DNA from: Glandiceps talaboti
Lineage: Eukaryota; Hemichordata; Enteropneusta; Spengelidae
Assembly: GCF_964340395.1 (NCBI RefSeq)
Contig: NC_135562.1
Span: 10,830,134 to 10,894,133 of the forward strand
Length of the DNA: 64,000 nucleotides
Direction: 5' to 3'
Shown here: positions 30,830 to 61,450 of the stretch, one piece after another
Numbering within the stretch: position 1 is the stretch's first letter
Layout of the letters: the number at the start of each line of letters is the position of its first letter
Translations under genes and position numbers: made by a program
Notes under the pieces: model-generated
What the model saw: the letters and a program-made list of their open reading frames with translations, nothing else
Told to the model about the DNA's origin: nothing
Databases searched by the model: none

Positions 30830-32964
30830 ACACCACACACACACACCCCCCAGTCAGAGTCAAGGATACTAAAACCCCATGGCCAGTAAAACACTGACAG
30901 AATTAACCCTTGTAAAAATACTGACACTTACTTTCTATCTCTTCCTGGTTGTGGTTTCAAATCCAATGCAGTGACAGAGTCTGAGTGAACAAAATACAGG
31001 ATTGGTCCAATGGTGAAGATTACATAGTTCTCACGATACTCATCAAAGCAGATCAACACTATATCACCAATGGAGAAACTAGACAGAGAGAAAAACAATC
31101 CATTTAGTTTATAACACAGTGTAGAACATGTCAGCTTTATCACAAGGTTTTGATCTATACTTAGTTTATAACACAGTGTAGAACATGTCAGCTTTATCAC
31201 AAGGTTTTGATCTATACTTAGTTTATAACACAGTGTAGAACACGTCAGCTTTATCACTTGGTTTTGATCTATACTTAGTTTATAACACAGTGTAGAACAC
31301 GTCAGCTTTATCACTTGGTTTTGATCTATACTTAGTTTATAACACAGTGTAGAACACGTCAGCTTTATCACTTGGTTTTGATCTATACTTAGTTTATAAC
31401 ACAGTGTAGAACACGTCAGCTTTGTTACTTGGTTTTGATCTATACTTAGTTTATAACACAGTGTAGAACACGTCAGCTTTATCACTTGGTTTTGATCTAT
31501 ACTTAGTTTATAACACAGTGTAGAACACGTCAGCTTTATCACTTGGTTTTGATCTATACTTAGTTTATAACACAGTGTAGAACACGTCAGCTTTGTTACT
31601 TGGTTTTGATCTATACTTAGTTTATAACACAGTGTAGAACACGTCAGCTTTGACACTTGGTTTTGATCTATACTTAGTTTATAACACAGTGTAGAACACG
31701 TCAGCTTTATCACTTGGTTTTGATCTATACTTAGTTTATAACACAGTGTAGAACACGTCAGCTTTATCACTTGGTTTTGATCTATACTTAGTTTATAACA
31801 CAGTGTAGAACACGTCAGCTTTATCACTTGGTTTTGATCTATACTTAGTTTATAACACAGTGTAGAACACGTCAGCTTTATCACTTGGTTTTAAATCTAT
31901 ACTTAGTTTATAACACAGTGTAGAACACGTCAGCTTTGTCACTTGGTTTTGATTTGTTAAAATATAATTCTAACCATGAGGGTCTATGTTCTAACATACA
32001 TACGTATTCTATATAAAATACACTTTTACTGTCCTAGAAAATTGGCAATACTTTGTGTAACAGTGAACAAATCAAAACATAAGCAAGAAAATTAAAACCT
32101 CATAATACAATGACAATGGAATACCATCTCTAGTAAAAACAAAGACATTTTCACTAAAAGAGACAGACATAGTAACATATAATAACAAAGTTAAAATCCA
32201 TGACATTCTTTAGTCGCTCCTGAGACTGTTCAGAAGGCAGATTTCTCTCATGATATACAAATATCCATCTATGTTGGCCTGAAGGAGTGAATTAACAATT
32301 GCTAACAAAATGACTGGCTACAAGATAGTTGGCTTCTCACCACCGCCTAAAGGAAAGAAAGTACACATCAGGAACAATTCACGCTATCTACCAGTTGGCA
32401 CGTTAGCTCAGCTGGTTAGAGCACTCTGACTAGTGTTCAGGGGACATGGGTTCAATTCACGGTATCTACCAGTTGGCACGTTAGCTCAGCTGGTTAGAGC
32501 ACTCTGACTAGTGTTTAGGGGACGTGGGTTCAATTCACGGTATCTACCAGTTGGTACGTTAGCTCAGCTGGTTAGAGCACTCTGACTAGTGTTCAGGGTA
32601 CGTGGGTTCAGTTCACGGTATCTACCAGTTGGTACGTTAGCTCAGCTGGTTAGAGCACTCTGACTAGTGTTTAGGGGACGTGGGTTCAATTCACGGTATC
32701 TACCAGTTGGGACGTTAGCTCAGCTGGTTAGAGCACTCTGACTAGTGTTCAGGGTACGTGGGTTCAGTTCACGGTATCTACCAGTTGGTACGATAGCTCA
32801 GCTGGTTAGAGCACTCTGACTAGTGTTTAGGGGACGCGGGTTCAATTCCTACACATGTCACTTTTCTTTCCTCAATTTTACATGATACAGAGGATTTCAA
32901 TGAAGACTTACTTTTGAATGGACACTTTGTCAGCCCTGGCAGAGGTAGCTCTTGTCAGTTGTAA
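29406..32964 (-). CDS. RB1CC1: RB1CC1 exons 16-19: C-terminal Claw domain
   Basis: Exon 16 (32964-32912), exon 17 (31078-30932), exon 18 (30049-29998) and exon 19 (29483-29406) encode residues about 1319-1427. The Claw starts at about 1336 with NFSIGDIVLICFDEY and ends in WPKKT. In vertebrates this domain binds cargo receptors such as p62 and NDP52-type adaptors. Three of these exons are under 80 nt, so gene finders may skip them; the intron between exons 16 and 17 holds two tandem arrays. Confidence 0.94.
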
Positions 32965-35900
32965 CTGAAATAATAATAAATGATTAAAACATAATCAGTT
33001 ATCTGTCTCTTATAACTGACACACTAAATCATTATATACATGACTGTTGTATTTGTACAAATTCAAATCTTAGAAATTCTAATGATATGAGTAACAGCAA
33101 GGATTAGACAATTTTATTGGTACATATATTTATTACTATAGTACCACCGTGACTGTTCCAAGACTGAATTTTCCTTCCATTGGTGAAGAGACGTAAAGAA
33201 TTAAGACTTACCAATCTCTGATTTAATGTCTTACATTCTTCTTCCTTGGCTCTGAGAGCTACATCCAACATATGGATTCTATCTTGTGATTCTAAACTGG
33301 TCTGTGTAATATCACTGTTATAGAAAACAAAACAAAATGAAAAATCACAACAATAAATTCTCCGATAGCTGAAGTGAAGCCAACATAAGTGTTCTGTCGT
33401 TGGATTCTAAACTATTCTGTGCAATATCACCGAACAAACAACCCCAACAATTAATTCTCTGAGAGCTGAAGCCAACATAAGTATTCTGTTGTTGGATTCT
33501 CCACTGGTCTGTGTGAGATATCATGGTTATGTAACAAAACATGACATCAAATAAAAATTTTTACTCACAGTAAACACCTGATGATGTTGACAAGAAGTAG
33601 GTGAAAAATTTTCAGATTCACTGTCAAGAAATTTTTTGACTCTTTTGAGTACAAATTTTCACTCATAACGCAAAGTCCATGGACATTCACTCTCAAAAAA
33701 CATAACATTTAATTGGTTTGTGGTAGTCAGATCTCAAGTTTTGCAAAACCTCTCCCCAAAAACAAAAGATTATGATGCGTTTACAGTAGTGCTACCAGAG
33801 AGGGGATTCACTGGAGATCAGGGTGAACATATGCCCTTATGCTTCATATCCCAAATACTGGAAAATACTGTAATGCCAAAGTTATAGACTAAGTATTGTG
33901 ACTTTTACTGTAATAAAAGAATGCAAGTTGTCGTTTTTTTACCTGTGAGCTGATGCTGATAATGAACCCTCAGGGATTTTATCAAATGTCATTGAAAGTG
34001 GTCTTTCTCTCTGTAATGGAACTCTTCCTTCCAACACTTCTAATTTCCTCTCAGCTTGTTCCAATTTATTTTTCAAGTCTTCAGAATTTTGTCTGAGTTG
34101 TTTTTCTGTATCTTGTGCTTGTGTGAGGGCTTTGTTGGTTTCTTCAGTAATGTCAGCATGGCCTGACAGTAACTTTGCTATGGTTTCTAGTAGGTACATA
34201 ACATACAAGACTTTAATATCATTCTAACACTTCCTATTTTAGCATCTTTGTTCAATACACTGCAATGTCTTATCCAATCAATTACACGACATGGCTGGAA
34301 AATACTTGATTGGTTAACTGACAGATGATTACTTTCATCAGCCAATCAGTAAAAGTCATGCTAAAATGAGTAAGTTGCTGATTGGTCAATGATTGCTTTT
34401 ATCAGCCAATCAGTGAAAGGCATGGTAATATGAGTAAGTTCCTGATTGGTCAATGATTACTTTCATCAACCAATCAGTGAAAGGCATGCTAATATGAGTA
34501 AGTTCCTGATTGGCCAATAGATAGATGTTGACTTTTATTAACTAATCAATATACATGTATGAATTTACAGTTTACAAGAGAGTTCCCCTGATTGGTTGAT
34601 GATTTGTTGTCAAATTTAACTTTTTACTCACCTTGATCTTTCTGTTGTTGTAGTTTCAATTCTTCTTGTTTTTGTTCCAGTGATGTAATAATTTTAACTT
34701 TCTCTAGCGTCACTTTAGTGAGTGCTTCGTTAAAACTGACTTGTTTTTCTGCTTGTAGACTGGTTCTCATACTAGTTAAACTATCGTGTTTATCTTTCTC
34801 ATACGATCTCACCATGTCATCCATCTCAATTTGATGTTTTTGTCTCTCCATCTCCACGGCAGCGGCGATGGCCTGCTCTCTTTCATCCATAAACTCAGCT
34901 TGTAATTTCTGCAAGCGTTCTTCGTATTTCCTCCGCTCCGTTTCCGTGGCAGCCAGGATAGCACTTTGTTTATCAGTTTGGAAGGATTCTTCCATTTTAC
35001 TTCCCATCATTTGTTCATCTAGTTTACTCTGTACTTGTAAGGTATAATCATTTTTCTCAGCTTCATATTTTTCCTGCAAACTATTAAGTTCACTTTGGTG
35101 TTCTCTCAGAAGTCGTTCTTTAATTTCTTCAATCTCACATTCTCTTTCGTGTTGTAACTTTTCTGTCAATTCAGTTATATTTTCCGAATATTTTAATTCA
35201 ATCCTTTCTCTCAATTCCTCTTTTTCTCTCTGTGAACTTTCTGCAAGTTTCTTGACATTTTCTTCAAATTTTGTCTTCATACTCTCCATCTTCTCCTTGT
35301 GCTCCGAGTTCAGTTTCGTTTCAACTTCTTCGATCCTTCTTTGTTCTTTTCTGTCTGCTTCAACTTTCAAGTTTGCCTCCAGCTCTCGTTTCGCGTTTTC
35401 AAACTGTGATCTTAAATCCTTGGCCAGCTGATCTTTCTCTAGAGCTAACTCTGCAATCACTTTCTCCTTGGCTTTAATATCAATTTCTAACTCTCTTATA
35501 TGCTGTATCATGTCATTTCGTAGACTCTCTACAGCTTTATCCTTCTCATGCTCTAACTTACTTTGCAATTCTTTCATTTGGCTTTCATAGTTCTGTTGTA
35601 CAGATTCAGAGTTATCAACAGTTGATTTCAGTTGTTCTTTCAAAGTTTTATTCTGTTGTTGTACACTATTGCACTTATCGACTTCCTCTTGAAGTTTTTT
35701 CTTGTATGTCTCTTCCATTTCAGTTGTGTTTTGTTTCAGTTGATTTATCAAACTCTGGGCATCACTTTTTTCTTTCTTGTACTCCTTTTTGACATTCTCC
35801 ACTGCCTGTACAAATTTAGTATTTGTGTTTTCTACGATAACACTGAAGTCTGTTTTAGTTGTCTCAATCAACTCTTTAATATCCTGCACATCTACTTTCA

Positions 35901-38900
35901 TTGTAGCCTTGGAGTCATTTAAAACTTGACACAATTTCTGACATTTCTCCTTTTCCTTGACCAGATTCATTTTAGAAATCTGCAACTCATGTTGGACTTT
36001 GACAAGTTCTATAGTTTTCTGTATCAAGGTACTTTTCAATTCTGCATTTCCTGTCGATATGTCTGTCTTCCGTCCGTCAGTCACATCAGGAAGTAAACTC
36101 TGACTAGCTGACAAAAACTCCTCATTTTGGTCAGCAAACGACAGAAATGGCATTGTCTCTAACGGTACATTGTTGGCTGTTCTTTGACCAGCAGCTCCTT
36201 GAACCGTCTCATCAATTTTCTTCAAGGACTGTCTATGTTCCTCAGCCATTTTTTGGAACTCCTCATCAAGAGCGACTTTCTCAAAACTGAGACTTAGTCT
36301 CTTCATTTCATCATTATCATCTACTCTTTCGGTATCCTTGACAACGTCTTTACTTGCATCCTCTGTAACCTTGACAACATCCTGATTGGTAGTCTGCTCT
36401 GTACTGGTTGCTACATCTCTTGGTGCAATATTAGGTTTACTAGGTACCATATCACCCAGAGTTGGAACTGTATCATTCAGACTGTGTGCGTTATCACCCT
36501 TGGCAGGTTGTTTATCACCCTGGGTGAATGCTATATCACCTATAGTGGGTGTCTTATCTCCTGGAGTTGGGGTCATATTTCCTATTAGTGATTTTTCACC
36601 TCCCTCAGGAAGTTCTTTGAGAGGACTTCTAAGTGTCAAACTCTTCAATGCAAGGACTTCTTGATGGTGCTCTTCAAACTCTTTCTTACAATTGTCAACA
36701 TCAGGTACTCTGTAAGGTCAAATGTGAAATAGTCAATCAGTCAAAGACATGAACCAAATTTGGCAAGATTGGGGAACAGTGGACTGACTGTAAATAGATA
36801 CATACTGTATGCAAGCTAGGGAGTTCAGGTCAGGGTTAGGAATGTGATTAGCCTCCCTAGCACAAATCAGATACATATTTGTATGCAAGCTAGGGAGTTT
36901 GGGTCTGGGTTAGGAATGTGATTAGATTCCCTAGCACAAATCAGATGCATATTTGTATGCAAGCTAGGGAGTTCGGGTCTGGGTTAGGAATGTGATTAGC
37001 CTCCCCAGCACAAATCAGATGCATATTTGTATGTAAGCTAGGGAGTTAGGGTCAGGGTTAGGAATATGGTTAGACTCCTTAGCACAAACCAGATACATAT
37101 TTGTATGCAAGCTAATATCATTTGACCACTGACAACCAACAATATATTGTTGAGTGTCAATGGCAAAATGATGTATCTGGTTTGAGCTAGGGAGTCTAAC
37201 CACATTCTTAACCCTGACCCTAACTCCCTAGCTTGCATACAAATATGTATCTTAGTATCTATTTACAGTCAGTCCACAGTTCTGGTACATAGTATTATTT
37301 CTTAGTTTTACTCACCTTAGCAATGTTGCCAGTTCTGGTACATCAATCATTTTATATCTCAGTTTTACTCACCTTAGCAGTGTTGCAAGTTCTGGTACAT
37401 AGTCTTTTAACTCTGTTATATCAGAGACTGTAATTTCTGGAAGACCAGTATCAAAGGAATCTGGAATTTCAGTCTGGTGAGAAAAAGACATGAAAAACAA
37501 ACACGATAATTGTTGTCAATGATTTTTCAATCTACAATAATAACATAATTCTAAACATTAGTTTCAATATATATCTTTTACTAATTTCAACAGAAGTTTA
37601 AATCACAGGGACCAGGAGGAATAAATGACTTTTTTCAAGATTTTCTGGATTTGTAATATTAAAAAAAGTGAGTTTATTCTAGAATATGTTGTACACTAGT
37701 TAATGCAAAGTTGATAAGACCATGATAACGGTGGGACACGGGAAGTAGACAGTCAGAGGAAAAAAGAAGTTATGATGGTAATAGGGTTAAAACTTTAGTT
37801 GAAATATGGAGAAAAATAAGAAAATAATACCAGAAATTTGGAAAATCATGAAAAATTCAGGTCGTTATTGCTTCGATGTCAGCAGTTGTATATTTCTGCA
37901 CAGAAACAAAATCTTATTTGAAAGTTGTTAGTTATTCGTGAAATTTTCACAGCTCTGGACCCAAAGGCAAGTATGTGTGAATCGAACAACTGCTGTGCTT
38001 AAAATATTCCAAAAGACAAGATACTATACATTATAGTTGTGACCTTTGACATATGGTAACCTATTCTCTTTGTTATGAAAAGTATTAATCATTACTCACT
38101 GCAAAGGATGATGGGTAATCATCAAGTCCAGGAAACAATGCATGAAGGAAGTGTTTTCCCATGACAGCGGAAAATTCCATTCTTCTGGACACTTCCTCAC
38201 CTTGAATTTGACCAGCATCTTCTGTTAGTTTGCTAGCCCACTGTTGGTGTAAGAAAATGTAAGATATGTAAAAATAGTGTATTTAGAGCTTCTTTTTTAT
38301 CTGTGGGAATATTACAAAAAAGAAACATTAGTAAAGTATTGTCTTCATGATAAGTATTCTACCAAATAAATCAGTTTATGATATGTGACTATAGTGTACT
38401 TTAAATCTCTCATGGCAACAGCTGGTACAAACAATGTGAATGACTGGCAGGTACTGCACCAGTCAATGGTGGAACCGTATGTACAATTACATTGGGTGCC
38501 TGGTGTTGTTTACTGCAATATGACACTGAAATCAGGGTCAGTTGGATTATAAGGAATAGACACAGTCACAGTGACAAACACACAGATACAGACACAGACA
38601 CAGACACAGGCAGACATAGACACATACACAGACACCGACACTGACACCGACACAGACACCGACACAGACACAGACACACACAGGCAGACAGACAGACACA
38701 GACACAGGCACAGGAACAGAGATAGAGACAGAGACAGAGACAGGAACAGAGACACACATACACACAATATGCCCCTTACGGAAAAATGTTTGTTTACAGA
38801 AAGCTAAACTAAAGACTCTTGTACTTCAAATTTTACCAATGTCGATCAGTGTTTTTGCTAAGATTGGGGAACCCTGGTAACAGAAAGGGAAAAAATGTAA

Positions 38901-42901: not shown

Positions 42902-45900
42902 AAAGAAGGTAACATGTATCACAGTTTCCAAACATTTTTCTTTGATCTCGACTAAAATGAATATGTGTGCAAAAACTTTACCAGATTTCCATCTTTTAGT
43001 TTATGGGGTCCTAAAACTTGTAACAATCACTGAATGTATTAGTATAGTAAACAACATCAAGTTTGCAAGACTTTCCTCACTGTTACAGGCATTCTAGAAT
43101 GCTGGGATATAAACCCACATGTCAGCAATATTGGACAAAATCTACATCATGTACAATTTAATGAGAACTTACTTACCAAGTGATGTATTGATTTCTGTCA
43201 TTAAGTTGTTGAGAACTGACTCATCAAACTGAGGGAAGAAAACAGAACATTTCCTCAGACTTTTCCCATACATACATACTATCATCTGAGAAGTAGATCA
43301 TTTTTGTATTAGATCTGCTCAGATATTTTACTACTACCAGAACAGCCTTTCAACCAAACATTTTTTGTGAATGTTGTACATTTTCTTCACTTTTGTTTTT
43401 TACTGCAATCCAATTTAAGCCTACATCATAACCAATAAAGACAACTTGCTAAATCACTACTTGTTCCTGGGCCTTGACACACTTGACTGAAATAATTATA
43501 CCTGTTCCTGGGCCTTGACACACTTGACTGAAATAATTATACCTGTTCCTGGGCCTTCACACACTTAACTGAAAGCAATGGACCTGTTCCTGGCCTTGAC
43601 AGCTGAACTAATTATACCTGTTCCTGGCCTTGACAGCTGAACTAATTATACCTGTTCCTGGGCCTTGACAACTGAACTAATTATACCTGTTCCTGGGCCT
43701 TGACAACTGAACTAATTATACCTGTTCCTGGGCCTTGACAGCTGAACTAATTATACCTGTTCCTGGGCCTTGACAGCTGAACTAATTATACCTGTCCCTG
43801 GGCCTTGACAACTGAACTAATTATACCTGTCCCTGGGCCTTGACAACTGAACTAATTATACCTGTTCCTGGGCCTTGACAGCTGAACTAATTATACCTGT
43901 CCCTGGGCCTTGACAACTGAACTAATTATACCTGTTCCTGGGCCTTGACAACTGAACTAATTATACCTGTTCCTGGGCCTTGACAACTGAACTAATTATA
44001 CCTGTTCCTGGGCCTTGACAACTGAACTAATTATACCTGTTCCTGGGCCTTGACAACTGAACTAATTATACCTGTTCCTGGGCCTTGACAACTGAACTAA
44101 TTATACCTGTTCCTGGGCCTTGACAACTGAACTAATTATACCTGTTCCTGGGCCTTGACAACTGAAATAAGTATACCTGTTCCTGGGCCTTGACAACTGA
44201 ACTAATTATACCTGTTCCTGGGCCTTGACAACTGCACTAATTATACCTGTTCCTGGGCCTTGACAACTGAACTAATTATACCTGTTCCTGGGCCTTGACA
44301 GCTGAACTAATTATACCTGTTCCTGGGCCTTGACAACTGCACTAATTATACCTGTTCCTGGGCCTTGACAGCTGAACTAATTATACCTGTTCCTGGGCCT
44401 TGACACACATAAGTGAAATAATGATCATACCTGTTCTAGGGCCTTGATACATTGTTCTGCCATTTGTTGCAAAGTACTCCTCTGATCCTGTGAAGCATAA
44501 ACATACACATTTATATAATCAGTATGTTGACAAAAGACTGAAGTGGCAGTCAAAAATTTCGGGGTTACAATTTTCAAGTTTATGTTTGGAACAAAACTTC
44601 AATTTGATACTACAGTTTACCTGCACAGATGAAATTTCATTTTAAGTGAATGAAAGTTGATAACTTTTGGACAATCGCACAATGTCACACAAGCAAAATA
44701 AGCAAACTCTTCATTCGTTGGGGGGGGGGGGGGGGGGTCTGGCTTCAACGTCATTGCTGAACTTCATTTTCGCACTTCTATTTTCTAACCAAATTTTGAA
44801 AACTTTCACTCCTTCAATGATAACAGCTTCTGTATTTACTACTGAGATGTTGATAAGTTGATAAAAAATTACTTCTAATGTGAGATACAGTGCTGGGTTT
44901 CTGGTAGTGTTTTGATGTGTTTACCATCATCACAGTAAACAGGGCCATATGGTTGCAATTCATGTTTACCACGCTTTTACATTGCACTGACCATAGTGGT
45001 GTGACCGCTACATTTCGCATCATAGTTTACATCACTTTATTATATATAAACATGTGATGTAGTACCTGTGACTTCATTTAGGGGGAGGGGGAAGATGTTT
45101 TGTCCTAAATGAACAATATTCGCTTATTGAGATTGTGTGACATTGTGTGATCATCCCTTACCTGACTACTTATCCATTGTAGTAGTGTAAGAGAATGAGA
45201 TAAGTCTTTAGCTTTGTTTTGATGACTTAGTAGGCATGGTAGTAATGGCATCTTAGACAGCAAAGACAATACGTTACCAAAGTCTCTCAACATAGTCAAG
45301 TATTGGGATCTTGTTGTTAGAAACTCATCAAAGTTTAGCTGAAATATACTGGATCTCTGACCAAATGCACTGAAAAAATAACAAAGATTACTAGGTAGTG
45401 ATCGTAGGGTGAAATTGTCTTTCCAACAAATTGAATATAATATTTCCAATTCATGACAGTTTGCTAGTATTTCTTTGGTGTTTTTTTTCCTTTGTTTTCG
45501 TAGTGGTTGTATTATTTTTCATTTTTAGTGGTTAGTTTGTTGTACAATGTACTGAGATGTTGTATTATACATTACCTTGGCAGAGTGGGCCCTAGAGCCA
45601 CATAACTATGACCATGAGACGTTGTATTATACACTACCTTGGCAGAGTGGGCCCTAGAGCTACATAACTATGACCATGTGACGTTGTATTATACACTACC
45701 TTGGCAGAGTGGGCCCTACAGCCACATAACTATGACCATGCGACGTTGTATTATACACTACCTTGGCAGAGTGGGCCCTGCAGCCACATAACTATGACCA
45801 TGAGACGTTGTATTATACACAACCTTGGCAGAGTGGGCCCTCGAGCCACATTAACTATGACCATGAACTTTTCAAGCTCAATTCTCAATTTTCGTTGCCA

Positions 45901-48900
45901 GTTTCTAGAAGTCAGTTGTGAAATGTCACACGTACATCAGTAGACTGGCTTTCAAAACTTTTTAATTCCTTCAAGTTTGAGTGGATAGCTTGATAAAATG
46001 TAGGTTTCTTCAGTGTAGTGTAATCAAATCACTAGTCCTAGATGATCATATAGCCACACAGTAGATTGCATTCTAATTGGTATTTTGGCATTTTCTTAAT
46101 ACATGTACATTCTAAAGGGGAACAGCACTTCAGGAAATAGAGACATTTTCGTAAACTATGGGTTCTGGAGAATAATTTCATGATTTTACACCATCTAGAA
46201 TTATTTGCGATATCAGAGAAACATCAAGTTGATCTTGTGCCTTTATAGTGTATCTTTGCTATGGGCTATTGCATCATGGGAGTCAGTAGAAATAACGTAT
46301 TCAAGTTGCACATTGAATATTCATGAGCCTATATTAACTGAACAACTCTCATGAATATTCAGCAGGCAACTTGAATACATTATTTCTGCTGACTCCCATT
46401 ATGCAAAAGCACATACCAAAGATATCCTATCAAAGCAGCAATCAACTTGATGTTTTTTCTGTAATTGCAGGTAATTGTAGGTGATGTAAAATCATGAAAT
46501 CATTCTGACCCCAAGTTTATGACTGTGACTTCATTTCCTGGAATGGCATTCCACTTTAATACCTGTCTGAATTGTAATTGGTTTAGTCATGATATTTGAG
46601 AAGAGATGATGTTTCTTACCTACTAATATCTTCTAGATTAGCTACCACTGCTGCCCACCCTTGTTGTTGTAAGTGTTGGTCATGTACTAAACTTTCACAG
46701 CAGGTGACTTCATCTTTAGCCAAGTCGTAGATTTGCTGTAAATAAAAACACAGAACAGTTAGTCAGTAGTAAATAGTAAGATGGATAATTACACTTTAGT
46801 ACTACATATCATAGTTATAGTGGTTATATATGGTACCTTTGAGTTACCAAACTGGATTCTACTTACGATAATCACACTTGGTCATGATGGTTTAACTTAC
46901 CAATACTAACTAGACTCTAGTTATGATGGTTTACTTACCAATGCTAACTGTACACTTGTTATGACAGTCTCATAGAAAACGCTACTTGATATTTGAGATC
47001 TGGTTATGATGGTTTAAGTTACCAATACTAGAACATACAAATGCTAACTAGACTCTAGTTATGATGGTTTAAACTTACTAATGCTAATTAGACTCTAGTT
47101 TTGACAGTGTAACTTATCAATACTAGCTGTACCCTGGTTATGAGTGTAATGAGTTTAACTTACCAAGGCTAACTGTACCTAGGTTATGACAGTGTAACTT
47201 ACCAATGCTAGCTGTACTCTGGTTATGACAGTGTAACTTACCAATGCTAGCTGTACCCTGGTTATGACAGTGTAACTTACCAATACTAGCTGTACCCTGG
47301 TTATGACAGTGTAACTTACCAATGCTAGCTGTACTCTGGTTATTATAGTGTAACTTACCAATGCTAGCTGTACCCTGGTTATGACAGTGTAACTTACCAA
47401 TGCTAGCTGTACTCTGGTTATGACAGTGTAACTTACCAATGCTAGCTGTACCCTGGTTATGACAGTGTAACTTACCAATGCTAGCTGTACCCTGGTTATG
47501 ACAGTGTAACTTACCAATGCTAGCTGTACTCTGGTTATGACAGTGTAACTTACCAATGCTAACTGTACTTTGGTTATGATAGTGTAACTTACCAATGCTA
47601 GCTGTACTCTGGTTATGACAGTGTAACTTACCAATGCTAGCTGTACTCTGGTTATGACAGTGTAACTTACCAATGCTAACTGTACTCTGGTTATGATAGT
47701 GTAACTTACCAATGCTAGCTGTACTCTGGTTATGACAGTGTAACTTACCAATGCTAGCTGTACCCTGGTTATGACAGTGTAACTTACCAATGCTAGCTGT
47801 ACTCTGGTTATGACAGTGTAACTTACCAATGCTAGCTGTACTCTGGTTATGACAGTGTAACTTACCAATGCTAGCTGTACTCTGGTTATGACAGTGTAAC
47901 TTACCAATGCTAGCTGTACTCTGGTTATGACAGTGTAACTTACCAATGCTAGCTGTACTCTGGTTATGACAGTGTAACTTACCAATGCTAGCTGTACCCT
48001 GGTTATGACAGTGTAACTTACCAATGCTAGCTGTACTCTGGTTATGACAGTGTAACTTACCAATGCTAGCTGTACTCTGGTTATGACAGTGTAACTTACC
48101 AATGCTAGCTGTACCCTGGTTATGACAGTGTAACTTACCAATGCTAGCTGTACCCTGGTTATGAGTGTAATGAGTTTAACTTACCAATGCTAGCTGTACT
48201 CTGGTTATGACAGTGTAACTTACCAATGCTAGCTGTACCCTGGTTATGACAGTGTAACTTACCAATGCTAGCTGTACTCTGATTATGACAGTGTAACTTA
48301 CCAATGCTAGCTGTACCCTGGTTATGACAGTGTAACTTACCAATGCTAGCTGTACCCTGGTTATGAGTGTAATGAGTTTAACTTACCAATGCTAGCTGTA
48401 CTCTGGTTATGACAGTGTAACTTACCAATGCTAGCTGTACCCTGGTTATGACAGTGTAACTTACCAATGCTAGCTGTACCCTGGTTATGACAGTGTAACT
48501 TACCAATGCTAGCTGTACTCTGGTTATGACAGTGTAACTTACCAATGCTAGCTGTACCCTGGTTATGAGTGTAATGAGTTTAACTTACCAATGCTAGCTG
48601 TACTCTGGTTATGACAGTCTCATATGATGGATTCATATTAAGTGATCCTTCTACTTGATATTTGAGATCACCATCAGATCCTCCGTACACACTAGGTGAA
48701 GGTGGGGCTGCAGACTCTATTGTACTCTTACTGAACACGTATATAGGGTTGGTATCCTGAAAATAAAATATTACTATTTGTGTTCATATCAAACTCTATC
48801 CATAGAAGATCAGACAACCTAGCCGAGATAGAAACCAATCAGTGTGTGAACACTGGAACAACTTATCTCTTGATGTTAGGTCCAAATCATCAAGGAATGT

Positions 48901-56454: not shown

Positions 56455-56600
56455 GTGAAATACTTGTTCCCTGGCTTTGATTACCCATCATCCTTTGCAG
56501 TGAGTAGTGATGTTATATCTTGCATAATAAATAGAACCAATTACCATTATGTCAAAGGTCATATGTTGTATTGCATCATGTCTTTTGGTAGATTTGACAA
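56455..56600 (+). pseudogene. Decayed genomic copy of RB1CC1 exon 11 end with its donor and intron
   Basis: TTCCCTGGCTTTGATTACCC, ATCATCCTTTGCA|GTGAGTA, then TATGTCAAAGGTCA and ATCATGTCTTTTGG match exon 11 (LFPGLDDYPSSFA), its donor GTGAGTAATG and about 100 bp of intron 11. Because intron is included it is a DNA-level duplication, not a retrocopy. It is inverted relative to the gene. A block further left (GTGGAATTTTCC, about 56346) may be another piece of exon 11. Confidence 0.75.
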
Positions 56601-58499: not shown

Positions 58500-59257
58500 T
58501 ACAGTTTGATGCAGTGGTTGCCATAGCTACAACTACACTGCAATGTACATTATCAAGCAATACTTTTGATCCCAGTCGGTTTACACAGTAGTACAGAATC
58601 TATACACACTGTTTGTTATGTTATTACTGTACAAACACTTTGATGCAGTGGTTGCCATAGCTACAACTACACTGCAAGGTACTGTATCTACCAATGTTAT
58701 TGATCTCAGTCAGTTTACATAGGGTAGTACAGTATCTATACACACTGTCTTTGTTATGTTATTACTGTACAAACACTTTGATGCAGTGGTTGCCATAGTT
58801 ACATCATCTCTCAATGTTATGCAGTCAGTTTACACAGGGTAGTACAGCATCTATACACACTGTCATTGTGTTATTACTGTACAAATACTTTGATGCAGTG
58901 ATTGTCATAGTTACACTGCAAAGTACTTCATCTGTCAATGTTTTGGGTTGTAGTTTACACAGGGTAGTGCAGTATCTATGCACACTGTCTTTGTTGTGTT
59001 ATTACTGTACAAACACTTTGATGCAGTGGTTGTCATAGTTACACTGCAAAGTACTTCATTTGTCAGTGTTTTGGGTTGTAGTTTACACAGGGTAGTGCAG
59101 TATCTATACACACTGTCTTTGTTGTGTTATTACTGTACAAACACTTTGATGCAGTGGTTGTCATAGTTACACTGCAAAGTACTTCATCTGTCAGTGTTTT
59201 GGGTTGTAGTTTACACAGGGTAGTGCAGTATCTATACACACTGTCTTTGTTGTGTTA
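58500..59257 (-). repeat. Minisatellite of about 118-139 bp made from the TRIM gene's 3' end, about six copies
   Basis: On the gene strand each unit contains CACTGCATCAAAGTGTTTGT then ACAGTAATAACA, matching the gene's last codons (CIKVFVQ) and its TAA stop, followed by repeated 3' flank (ACAGTGTGTATAGATACTG, CCCTGTGTAAAC). The first part of each unit (GATGAAGTACTTTGCAGTG) matches the coding DDVPCSV stretch but has lost about 10 bp, so repeats are out of frame. Confidence 0.88.
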
Positions 59258-61450
59258 TTACTGTACAAACACTTTGATACAGTCGTTGCCATTGTCAGCA
59301 ACAACAACACTGCAAGGAACATCATCAGTTAATGCTATACCATGGGGATACATCAATCCATCTTCATCGCTATCAATACGACAGACAAACTGACCAGTGA
59401 TGTCAAACTTCTGTACCCTGTGGTTGTCACTGACATACACATATCTATCATTTTCAATGGCCACTCCTTTAGGGGAATCTAGCTCACCATCTTCATCACC
59501 ATAACAACCAAATGAAAACAGAAATTCACCATCTGGAGTGAATATCTGAATGCAATGGTTGCCATTGTCAGCTACAAATACTCTTCCTGTACTGTCAACA
59601 CTTAAGAAATAAGGAGTGTTGAATTTCGCCTGACCTTTACCCTGTGAACCAAATGACCCAATATACTTGCCATGCTTTGTGTAAATCCTCACACAGTGTC
59701 CACCCTTGTCTGTGACATACACCTTTCCATCTACAGGGCTGATAGCTAGGCCATGGGGATTCCTCAGTTCTCTTTTTCCGAAGGATCTAATGATGTGTCC
59801 ATTCTGATCACTAACTACTACTTGTGTATTGTCATCATCTAAGCTATAGTATGTATTATCACTTGATATGGCAATATCACATGGCCTATATTTTTTTAAT
59901 TGTGAAAATGCCAAAATTTTCTGAAATCTACCGTCTCTAGTTGTTACTTGTAGTCTTCTATTGCTGTAGTCAGCTGTGACAATGTCACCATCTCTGTTCA
60001 TAGCAACACTCCAGGTGTCATTGTACTTTCCTTCCCACTTTCCCTTTTTGCCAATGGTCTTCACCAACCCTTTGATGACAGGAATGGTGACAGGACTGCC
60101 TGGTATTGGTTGATCGCCTATCGTCATAGTAACTTGATATGTACCGTCCATTTCTCCATGCACTGTCACCCTGTGTGTACCATCTCTGTTGTCTGCTACT
60201 TTGATGTCTCCCCATGATCCATCAGGTTTCTTGATCTTGGCTTTGACTTCTTGTCTGGGGATGACTTGTACTCCTTTGGAATTCCTGGTTGTTATCTGTA
60301 GGTGTGCTGAGTCGCCTTTCGGGAGTTGCTGTGGAACATCCTCGATTGTGCATTGTGATATGTAGATATCTGAAAGTGTTACCAGTTCTCCCAGTATTTC
60401 ATGATCGGCAAATGATTGTATTGGCTGGAATTCGATATGAGATAGTTCGAGTTTGGTTTCCATGGTGATGAGATGTTGGATACGATCTGTGGCTGCCTTC
60501 TTGGTAGACAGAAGTTGAACATCATTCGCGTGATGCATCAGTGTTTGTATGTAACCACACGTACTGTTAATGGTACCATGTTTTAATTCCAACTCATCAA
60601 TACCATCTACCGCACTTTTCAGTTTCATATCATATCCTCTGTTTAACTCATCTATCAATTTCTCCTCCGCTTTCTTTATTTTGTCGACGATTTCATTTGT
60701 TTTCATTCTCACCTTCTGCTCCTCCTCTCTCCACTGATCTTTTAGCTGACTGATGTGCGTCTGCTTGGCTGTAGATTCATGTTCGTCAGCTTCTTGTTCT
60801 TTCGCCTTCAACTTGTCAATCTTATCCTTCAACTGATATTCATCTGCCACATCTTTCAAATCTCTGTGGACATGTTCTGGTATACGGTGCTTTACTATAG
60901 TACAGTCTGTACAAACAGATATCTGGCAAGTGTCACAGTAGAATTCAATCTCATTTTTAGGGTGGATACTGCAGTACTCTACGGTTCGCACCGTTGGTCT
61001 AGAGGACACTGTTTTGTAGTCTTCGAAGGTGATCAGTCGATGTGATTTTGTGAGTGGCAAGATTTTATGTGCTTTCACACAGTTGTTACATAGATAAACT
61101 TTACATTCTACACACCTATGACTGGTTGTATTCTCTTGGCATCCCTCACACTGGATTAGACTGTCCTCAGCACTTTCTTGGAGTATGTGGTGTATTTCAA
61201 TACAATTGTCCATAAACAAGTCGGAAATCAGTCCTGGCACGCCTCCAACATGGAGGGGACATGAAGTAGAGCAAGATGGACATTCAAGTTATCCTTTCTT
61301 CTCCAATAATTCTACTATACATTGTTGACAGAAGGTGTGAAGACACGGTAGAATTTTAGGATCCTTAAACCGTCCCAGACAGATTGTACAACTCACGAAA
61401 TCTTCAGCAATTTCATCCCTGAGAATTTCATTTTCACTAGCAGCAGCCAT
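59258..61450 (-). CDS. TRIM-NHL protein (TRIM2/3/71-like), single-exon ORF with an in-frame TAA inside the RING finger
   Basis: Numbering from the ATG at 61450 gives 730 positions. Domains: C3HC4 RING with ligands C21, C24, C36, H38, C41, C44, C57, C60; B-box 1 about 101-147 (CEGCQENTT, CVECKVYLC); B-box 2 about 160-197 (YCSIHPKNEIEFYCDTC); coiled coil about 200-310; filamin-type Ig repeat about 365-460 (DNRDGTHRVTV, IPGSPVTI); six NHL repeats to the C-terminus. Such proteins are E3 ubiquitin ligases that often also bind RNA via the NHL propeller. Codon 54 (61291-61289) is TAA, in the same frame on both sides, between zinc ligands 6 and 7. No intron can remove it. Everything else is intact, so this may be a recent null allele, an error or read-through. 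Without it, an ATG at 61213 would start a RING-less protein. An earlier in-frame ATG exists at 61564, but MAAASENEILRDE is the family-like start. Confidence 0.88.

Follow-up and report, generated by a model that had tools for sequence, protein, structure and literature searches.

Donor-spanning repeats in RB1CC1

The window analyzed here, a stretch of 64,000 nucleotides from the hemichordate Glandiceps talaboti, contains on its minus strand the RB1CC1/FIP200 gene, the host of a minisatellite array in intron 3. The RB1CC1 exons were placed by homology and splice signals. Those needed below are the following (a slash marks a splice junction).

48589..48756, minus strand: RB1CC1 exon 3, supported by splice sites, frame and matches to human FIP200 and P. 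flava
46620..46735, minus strand: RB1CC1 exon 4, with the true acceptor TTTACAG immediately 5' and a match to human FIP200
44431..44487, minus strand: RB1CC1 exon 6 (DQRSTLQQMAEQCIKALEQ), with donor CAG/GTATGA, supported by alignment with P. flava
37373..37473, minus strand: RB1CC1 exon 12 (TEIPDSFD...LATLL), with donor AAG/GTGAGT, supported by alignment with P. flava

The peptide encoded by exons 3 and 4 matched human FIP200 (8soi_A) with an E value of 6e-23 and a gapless join, which reads QLAL/QIYDLA here and QLAL/EMYEVA in human FIP200. Among the best 120 of 647 matches to the RB1CC1 protein, the closest belonged to the acorn worm Ptychodera flava, with 85% identity across the first 515 residues, which points to an enteropneust host; amphioxus, annelid and mollusc proteins followed at 60% or slightly below. 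A second alignment, with P. flava, amphioxus, starfish and abalone, revealed no insertion at join 3/4 in any of the four, and none in the P. flava protein at joins 6/7 and 12/13. Since the joins are gapless against human FIP200 and P. flava, the proteins of these relatives contain no peptide from the array. The P. flava RB1CC1 model itself (P0121) predicts a protein of merely 895 residues, possibly through a gene-model fault.

Structure of the intron 3 array

The array in intron 3 has a homogeneous part next to exon 3 and a diverged part at its far end.

47118..48588, minus strand: homogeneous array, comprising 36 GTAAGTTA copies in addition to the true donor at 48588
46847..47117, minus strand: diverged distal part, with seven donor-like sites

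When intron 3 was cut at the donor, 44 donor-like sites were obtained in total. The homogeneous array consists of 37 units, 33 of 39 bp and four of 46 bp, and TRF reported a 39-bp unit in 37.1 copies at 47152-48618 with 93% matches. The repeats carry splice signals: GTAAGTTA starts all 37 homogeneous units, true donor counted, and is present in exact form at one of the seven diverged sites. The exonic portion of each 39-bp unit corresponds to the final 30 nt of exon 3. The original prediction, made from the letters of the window, had described about 36 repeats that copy the exon 3/intron 3 junction of RB1CC1 together with its donor, nearly identical by the exon and diverged distally, and all of this was borne out by the joins to human FIP200 and P. 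flava and by the units themselves. It was right about the 30 exonic nucleotides of the unit, but the copies share eight, not nine, of the first nine intronic nucleotides; likewise, a diverged part exists but extends over about 46847-47117 instead of 46835-47160.

The 46-bp units are located at 48588, 48386, 48184 and 47163, so that the 46-bp form found near exon 3 returns at a spacing of 202 bp, and the 90 bases from 48618 to 48529 match two further sites with 100% identity. A 46-bp unit immediately follows the true donor and carries the in-frame TAA that had been predicted there, but the more frequent 39-bp unit has no stop in that frame. Nine positions vary across the 33 39-bp units, and none of these falls in the last three exonic or first eight intronic positions; the intron 3 units differ in their point variants, whose order is non-periodic. 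The distal unit at 47022-46939 contains a longer piece of exon 3, which matches 48669-48651 at 47000-46982 (19 of 19 bases) and extends, with an internal gap, to 48669, 81 nt 5' of the donor. We read this piece as a probable fossil of a longer founding duplication, which would make the distal end of the array the old one and the exon-adjacent end the young one.

A search with 221 bases of exon 3 and the junction against the animal's own genome (590 Mb, 47 contigs) returned 37 matches, all at this locus, and the array was not found elsewhere at the sensitivity of that search, which can miss repeats. A plasmid search returned no match.

Further repeats at RB1CC1 junctions

The intron 3 array is not unique, as like repeats were found elsewhere in RB1CC1 and in the genome. 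Within the window these are as follows.

43458..44430, minus strand: second donor-spanning array, in intron 6, mostly of 35-bp units CAAGGCCCAGGAACAG/GTATAATT...
37277..37372, minus strand: third donor-spanning duplication, in intron 12, with a unit of about 57 bp in which the donor AAG/GTGAGTAAAACT recurs
33380..33557, minus strand: two decayed acceptor-side copies of the exon 15 start, upstream of exon 15, 68% and 74% identical
56464..56561, plus strand: inverted copy of the exon 11 tail and donor, 83% identical over 101 bp, 18 kb away

The repeated unit spans a real exon-intron boundary in introns 3, 6 and 12. Intron 6 units duplicate the final nucleotides of exon 6 together with the donor, and of the 26 copies that follow the true donor, 24 keep GTATAATT; donor position 6 varies among the units, and the final site, at 43466, is degenerate. 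The intron 12 repeat amounts to 2.4 copies including the exon copy (37277-37409, 84% matches). The decayed copies upstream of exon 15 are an old acceptor-side case.

In all three of introns 3, 6 and 12, reading past the true donor leads to an in-frame stop ahead of the second donor. The predicted energy of base pairing to the U1 5' end was equal for true and copied donors in each of the three introns, so donor strength offers no explanation of the choice between them. Homogenization between array and exon had also been proposed. Near-identity of exon and array copies is indeed seen in intron 3, but only there: the exon 6 copy reads CTAGAACAG and the array copies CAGGAACAG, which indicates that array and exon are not kept uniform in intron 6 and that homogenization with the exon is not general.

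Junction-spanning repeats in myosin genes of the same genome

Six myosin loci, 59.2 kb in total, were fetched by exon density and not by repeats, with myosin-head exon positions taken from a family search (Myosin_head model, 78 matches). Four of the six loci yielded five tandem repeats that span a junction, three at donors and two at acceptors; three of the five lie at Myosin_head-matched exons and two at exons recognized by reading. Both kinds of boundary are thus affected in this genome, acceptors in loci L029 and L034 and donors in L031, L033 and L034.

C12:13784259-13784622: L031, donor-spanning, 31 bp x 11
C5:6412300-6412583: L033, donor-spanning, 141 bp x 2, 93%, final part of the exon plus donor
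C4:29915298-29915496: L034, donor-spanning, 99 bp x 2, 97%, end of the P-loop exon GAGKTESTKYILR plus donor
C4:29906627-29906742: L034, acceptor-spanning, 48 bp x 2.4, TTTCCAG/GGTTCCCTTAC with two near-copies upstream
C6:963034-963166: L029, acceptor-spanning, 66 bp x 2, 98%, TTTTGTACTTAG/GGTGGCAG

In L031, an exon ending in CIKPNELKKPN is followed by the 11 units of 31 bp, which repeat the exon end and donor; GT has become AT at the second and third donor places, a stop precedes the next intact copy, and the likely next exon lies 3' of the array. The P-loop exon of L034, recognized by reading, has a stop directly behind its donor, and the upstream acceptor copy in L029, if used, would meet a stop. 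The L029 exon was also recognized by reading and is absent from the model matches, which is why the automatic exon-end test, applied to four loci, missed its duplication. The duplication in L033 is open in frame, and splicing at its second donor would insert 47 stop-free codons. A stop is therefore not a universal safeguard, and in L033 either splicing must pick the correct site or the additional peptide must be tolerated. In the two other loci, L028 and L030, no self-match touched an exon end, as judged at matched exon ends.

Abundance and placement of minisatellites

The genome is rich in minisatellites, with 58 arrays of unit length at least 20 bp in 190 kb of arbitrary stretches (n = 19). 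None of these 58 units reached nine of nine positions of the donor motif, the best reaching eight (L019), in stretches that carry no gene models; within the window, the intron 12 unit alone reached nine.

We compared the observed positions with random placement of the arrays, with exon destruction barred and the range of P reflecting the tolerated exon overlap; units of at least 20 bp (at least 30 bp for RB1CC1) entered these tests. In RB1CC1, three of the nine arrays span a donor, where 0.46-1.06 would be expected (P 0.009-0.08). When the intron 3 array was left out, two of eight did so (P 0.05-0.23), and when junctions of either kind were counted, the result was three of nine (P 0.09-0.39, the upper value under the loosest overlap rule). 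For the myosins, whose exon maps are partial and consist of model matches that in places merge adjacent exons, 3 of 16 arrays crossed a junction with model-matched exons only (0.58-1.28 expected, P 0.017-0.13). Adding the two exons found by reading, both of which came to notice via their arrays, raised this to 5 of 16 (0.65-1.40 expected, P 0.0001-0.008). With seven loci pooled, the count was 8 of 23, reached in none of 4,000 draws under the tightest overlap rule; the pooled test left out three short arrays that the myosin test includes. One L029 array (964654-964722), inside a single merged match, was unclassed in the pooled test and dropped from the myosin test. Taken together, an excess of junction-spanning arrays over chance is suggestive but not established.

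Comparison with known systems

Tandem repeats of this kind are reportedly named mirages in a 2002 paper by Canestro. According to two later reports (PMC3087553, PMC3902484), amphioxus mirages are tandem repeats across exon-intron boundaries, on the donor or the acceptor side, in the genes for Adh3, the globins BflGb6 and BflGb9, PGBD5 and troponin C; they are unstable in length and reportedly leave regular splicing undisturbed. Their units measure 10-72 bp in Adh3, 157 bp in BflGb9 and 150-160 bp in BflGb6, which has six and three units in two haplotypes. The RB1CC1 repeats resemble them in spanning exon-intron boundaries, with splicing predicted here from genomic sequence. They differ in their hemichordate host, in the presence of three donor-spanning repeats in one gene, and in the 37 successive donors with an identical 8-nt start in intron 3.

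Human IFI6 (6-16) has a minisatellite (Turri et al. 1995) that reportedly supplies multiple splice donor sites, with two downstream repeat units serving as donors. The RB1CC1 array similarly supplies many donors, of which the inner ones are putative. In human CBS, a polymorphic 31-bp VNTR of 16-21 copies, c.1444_1467+7, crosses the donor according to its published coordinates, with 24 exonic and 7 intronic nucleotides (PMC2630376); it is a single array, and its unit differs from the 30 exonic and 9 intron-side nucleotides in RB1CC1. Intron gain has also been reported to arise from tandemly duplicated segments that include splice signals, and human repeats at exon-intron boundaries have been linked to new introns (PMC2812944). 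The RB1CC1 copies likewise include splice signals, but the array lies inside an existing intron, and the exons are joined as in relatives.

The original prediction had supposed that no class of splice-donor minisatellites was described, which does not hold, as amphioxus mirages, human IFI6 and human CBS all precede it. Apparently new are the hemichordate host, the several cases per gene and the 37 donors with the same core. Among the titles and abstract openings listed from the open-licence literature, we found no report of a hemichordate mirage, a weak negative.

Origin and persistence of the repeats

We are largely confident that the repeats are most likely mirages, that is, minisatellites seeded by tandem duplication across a junction and tolerated through use of the outermost splice site. 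The genomic DNA itself displays the junctions, their copies, the polarity of the array and the stop codons, and the recurrence of such repeats at several loci. A tandem duplication of a segment with an exon-intron boundary would seed an array whose copies lie on the intron side. We infer that splicing uses whichever site lies outermost (the 5'-most donor or, in acceptor mirages, the 3'-most acceptor); the protein would then be unchanged, which would be why the copies persist as nearly neutral sequence. For RB1CC1, use of the first donor would be in keeping with the relatives' proteins and with the stop codons. Splicing at an inner donor would mostly introduce an early stop, followed by loss. 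A duplication across a junction would be harmless only with use of the outermost site, and the copies would then be spare intron sequence. Arrays would change in size through unequal exchange or slippage, and in intron 3 the exon end holds recent block duplications, with old units surviving at the far end. A point against this account is that some placement tests suggest an excess of junction-spanning arrays, which random seeding does not predict.

Other explanations were weighed against mirages. Exon 3 could continue through the array as coding sequence, given that no stop interrupts the 39-bp unit in the frame of the exon; we consider this exceedingly unlikely, as the first 46-bp unit carries TAA, 46 nt shifts the frame, and the join lacks an insertion in human, P. 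flava, amphioxus, starfish and abalone alike. It is very improbable that the assembly collapsed or inflated a repeat. An amphioxus mirage does appear misassembled in a genome draft (PMC3087553), but the non-periodic point variants, the diverged tail and the independent repeats at other loci argue for a real array. A functional array, whose many donors would buffer or control the output of RB1CC1, for example through unproductive splicing and nonsense-mediated decay or through binding of multiple U1 particles that suppresses early polyadenylation, would fit the stop right behind the donor in all three RB1CC1 arrays and the invariance of the junction positions in the 33 39-bp units. We regard it as improbable: unrelated junctions in myosin genes, acceptors among them, carry similar repeats, the repeat in intron 12 reaches only about two copies, donor position 6 is variable in intron 6, and the common ancestry of units makes donor conservation weak evidence.

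The excess in the placement tests bears on a further alternative, that a process acting through, for example, transcription, R-loops or exon-edge chromatin duplicates DNA preferentially at splice sites. Both the RB1CC1 donor count (three of nine) and the myosin counts, with or without the two exons found by reading, point in this direction. Against it stand the weaker results without the intron 3 array and with both junction kinds, the partial myosin exon maps with two exons recognized through their arrays, and an array that also straddles a TRIM coding end, where no splice site is known. A junction-targeted process seems unlikely to us.

If the repeats are mirages, such repeats are present in a second phylum of deuterostomes, and several cases occur among a small number of genes, so that their rate, their origin and a possible role in new introns become testable genome-wide. 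We put forward only tentatively the broader proposal that mirages are common and junction-biased in hemichordate genes too, beyond cephalochordates, and that the spliceosome reliably picks the outermost of up to 37 same-core sites, a choice predicted neither by donor strength nor by closeness to the acceptor. Intron 3 offers a natural competition experiment, with the true donor set beside 36 copies of the first 8 intronic nucleotides, each behind about the same 30 exonic nucleotides. This near-identity of exonic sequence and donor core largely rules out choice by local sequence strength, and positional choice of the donor could be read directly from RNA. Annotators should be aware that gene models and short-read assemblies may err at mirage junctions.

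Other repeats in the window

Three further arrays in the window were observed. In a TRIM-NHL gene whose reading frame ends at 59258 on the minus strand, a 128-bp array at 58573-59292 overlaps the last ~35 nt of that frame, including the stop codon, and puts copies of the coding end in the 3' flank; this arrangement is in line with simple seeding where constrained sequence ends. At 31104-31953, a 57-bp array of 15 copies stops just 5' of the polypyrimidine tract of RB1CC1 exon 16 and leaves the junction uncrossed. Finally, an RB1CC1 intron contains, on the opposite strand at 32375-32848, six tandem 78-bp units that resemble tRNA-Thr(AGT), three of which are called by ARAGORN and one of which scores above the Rfam tRNA cut-off.
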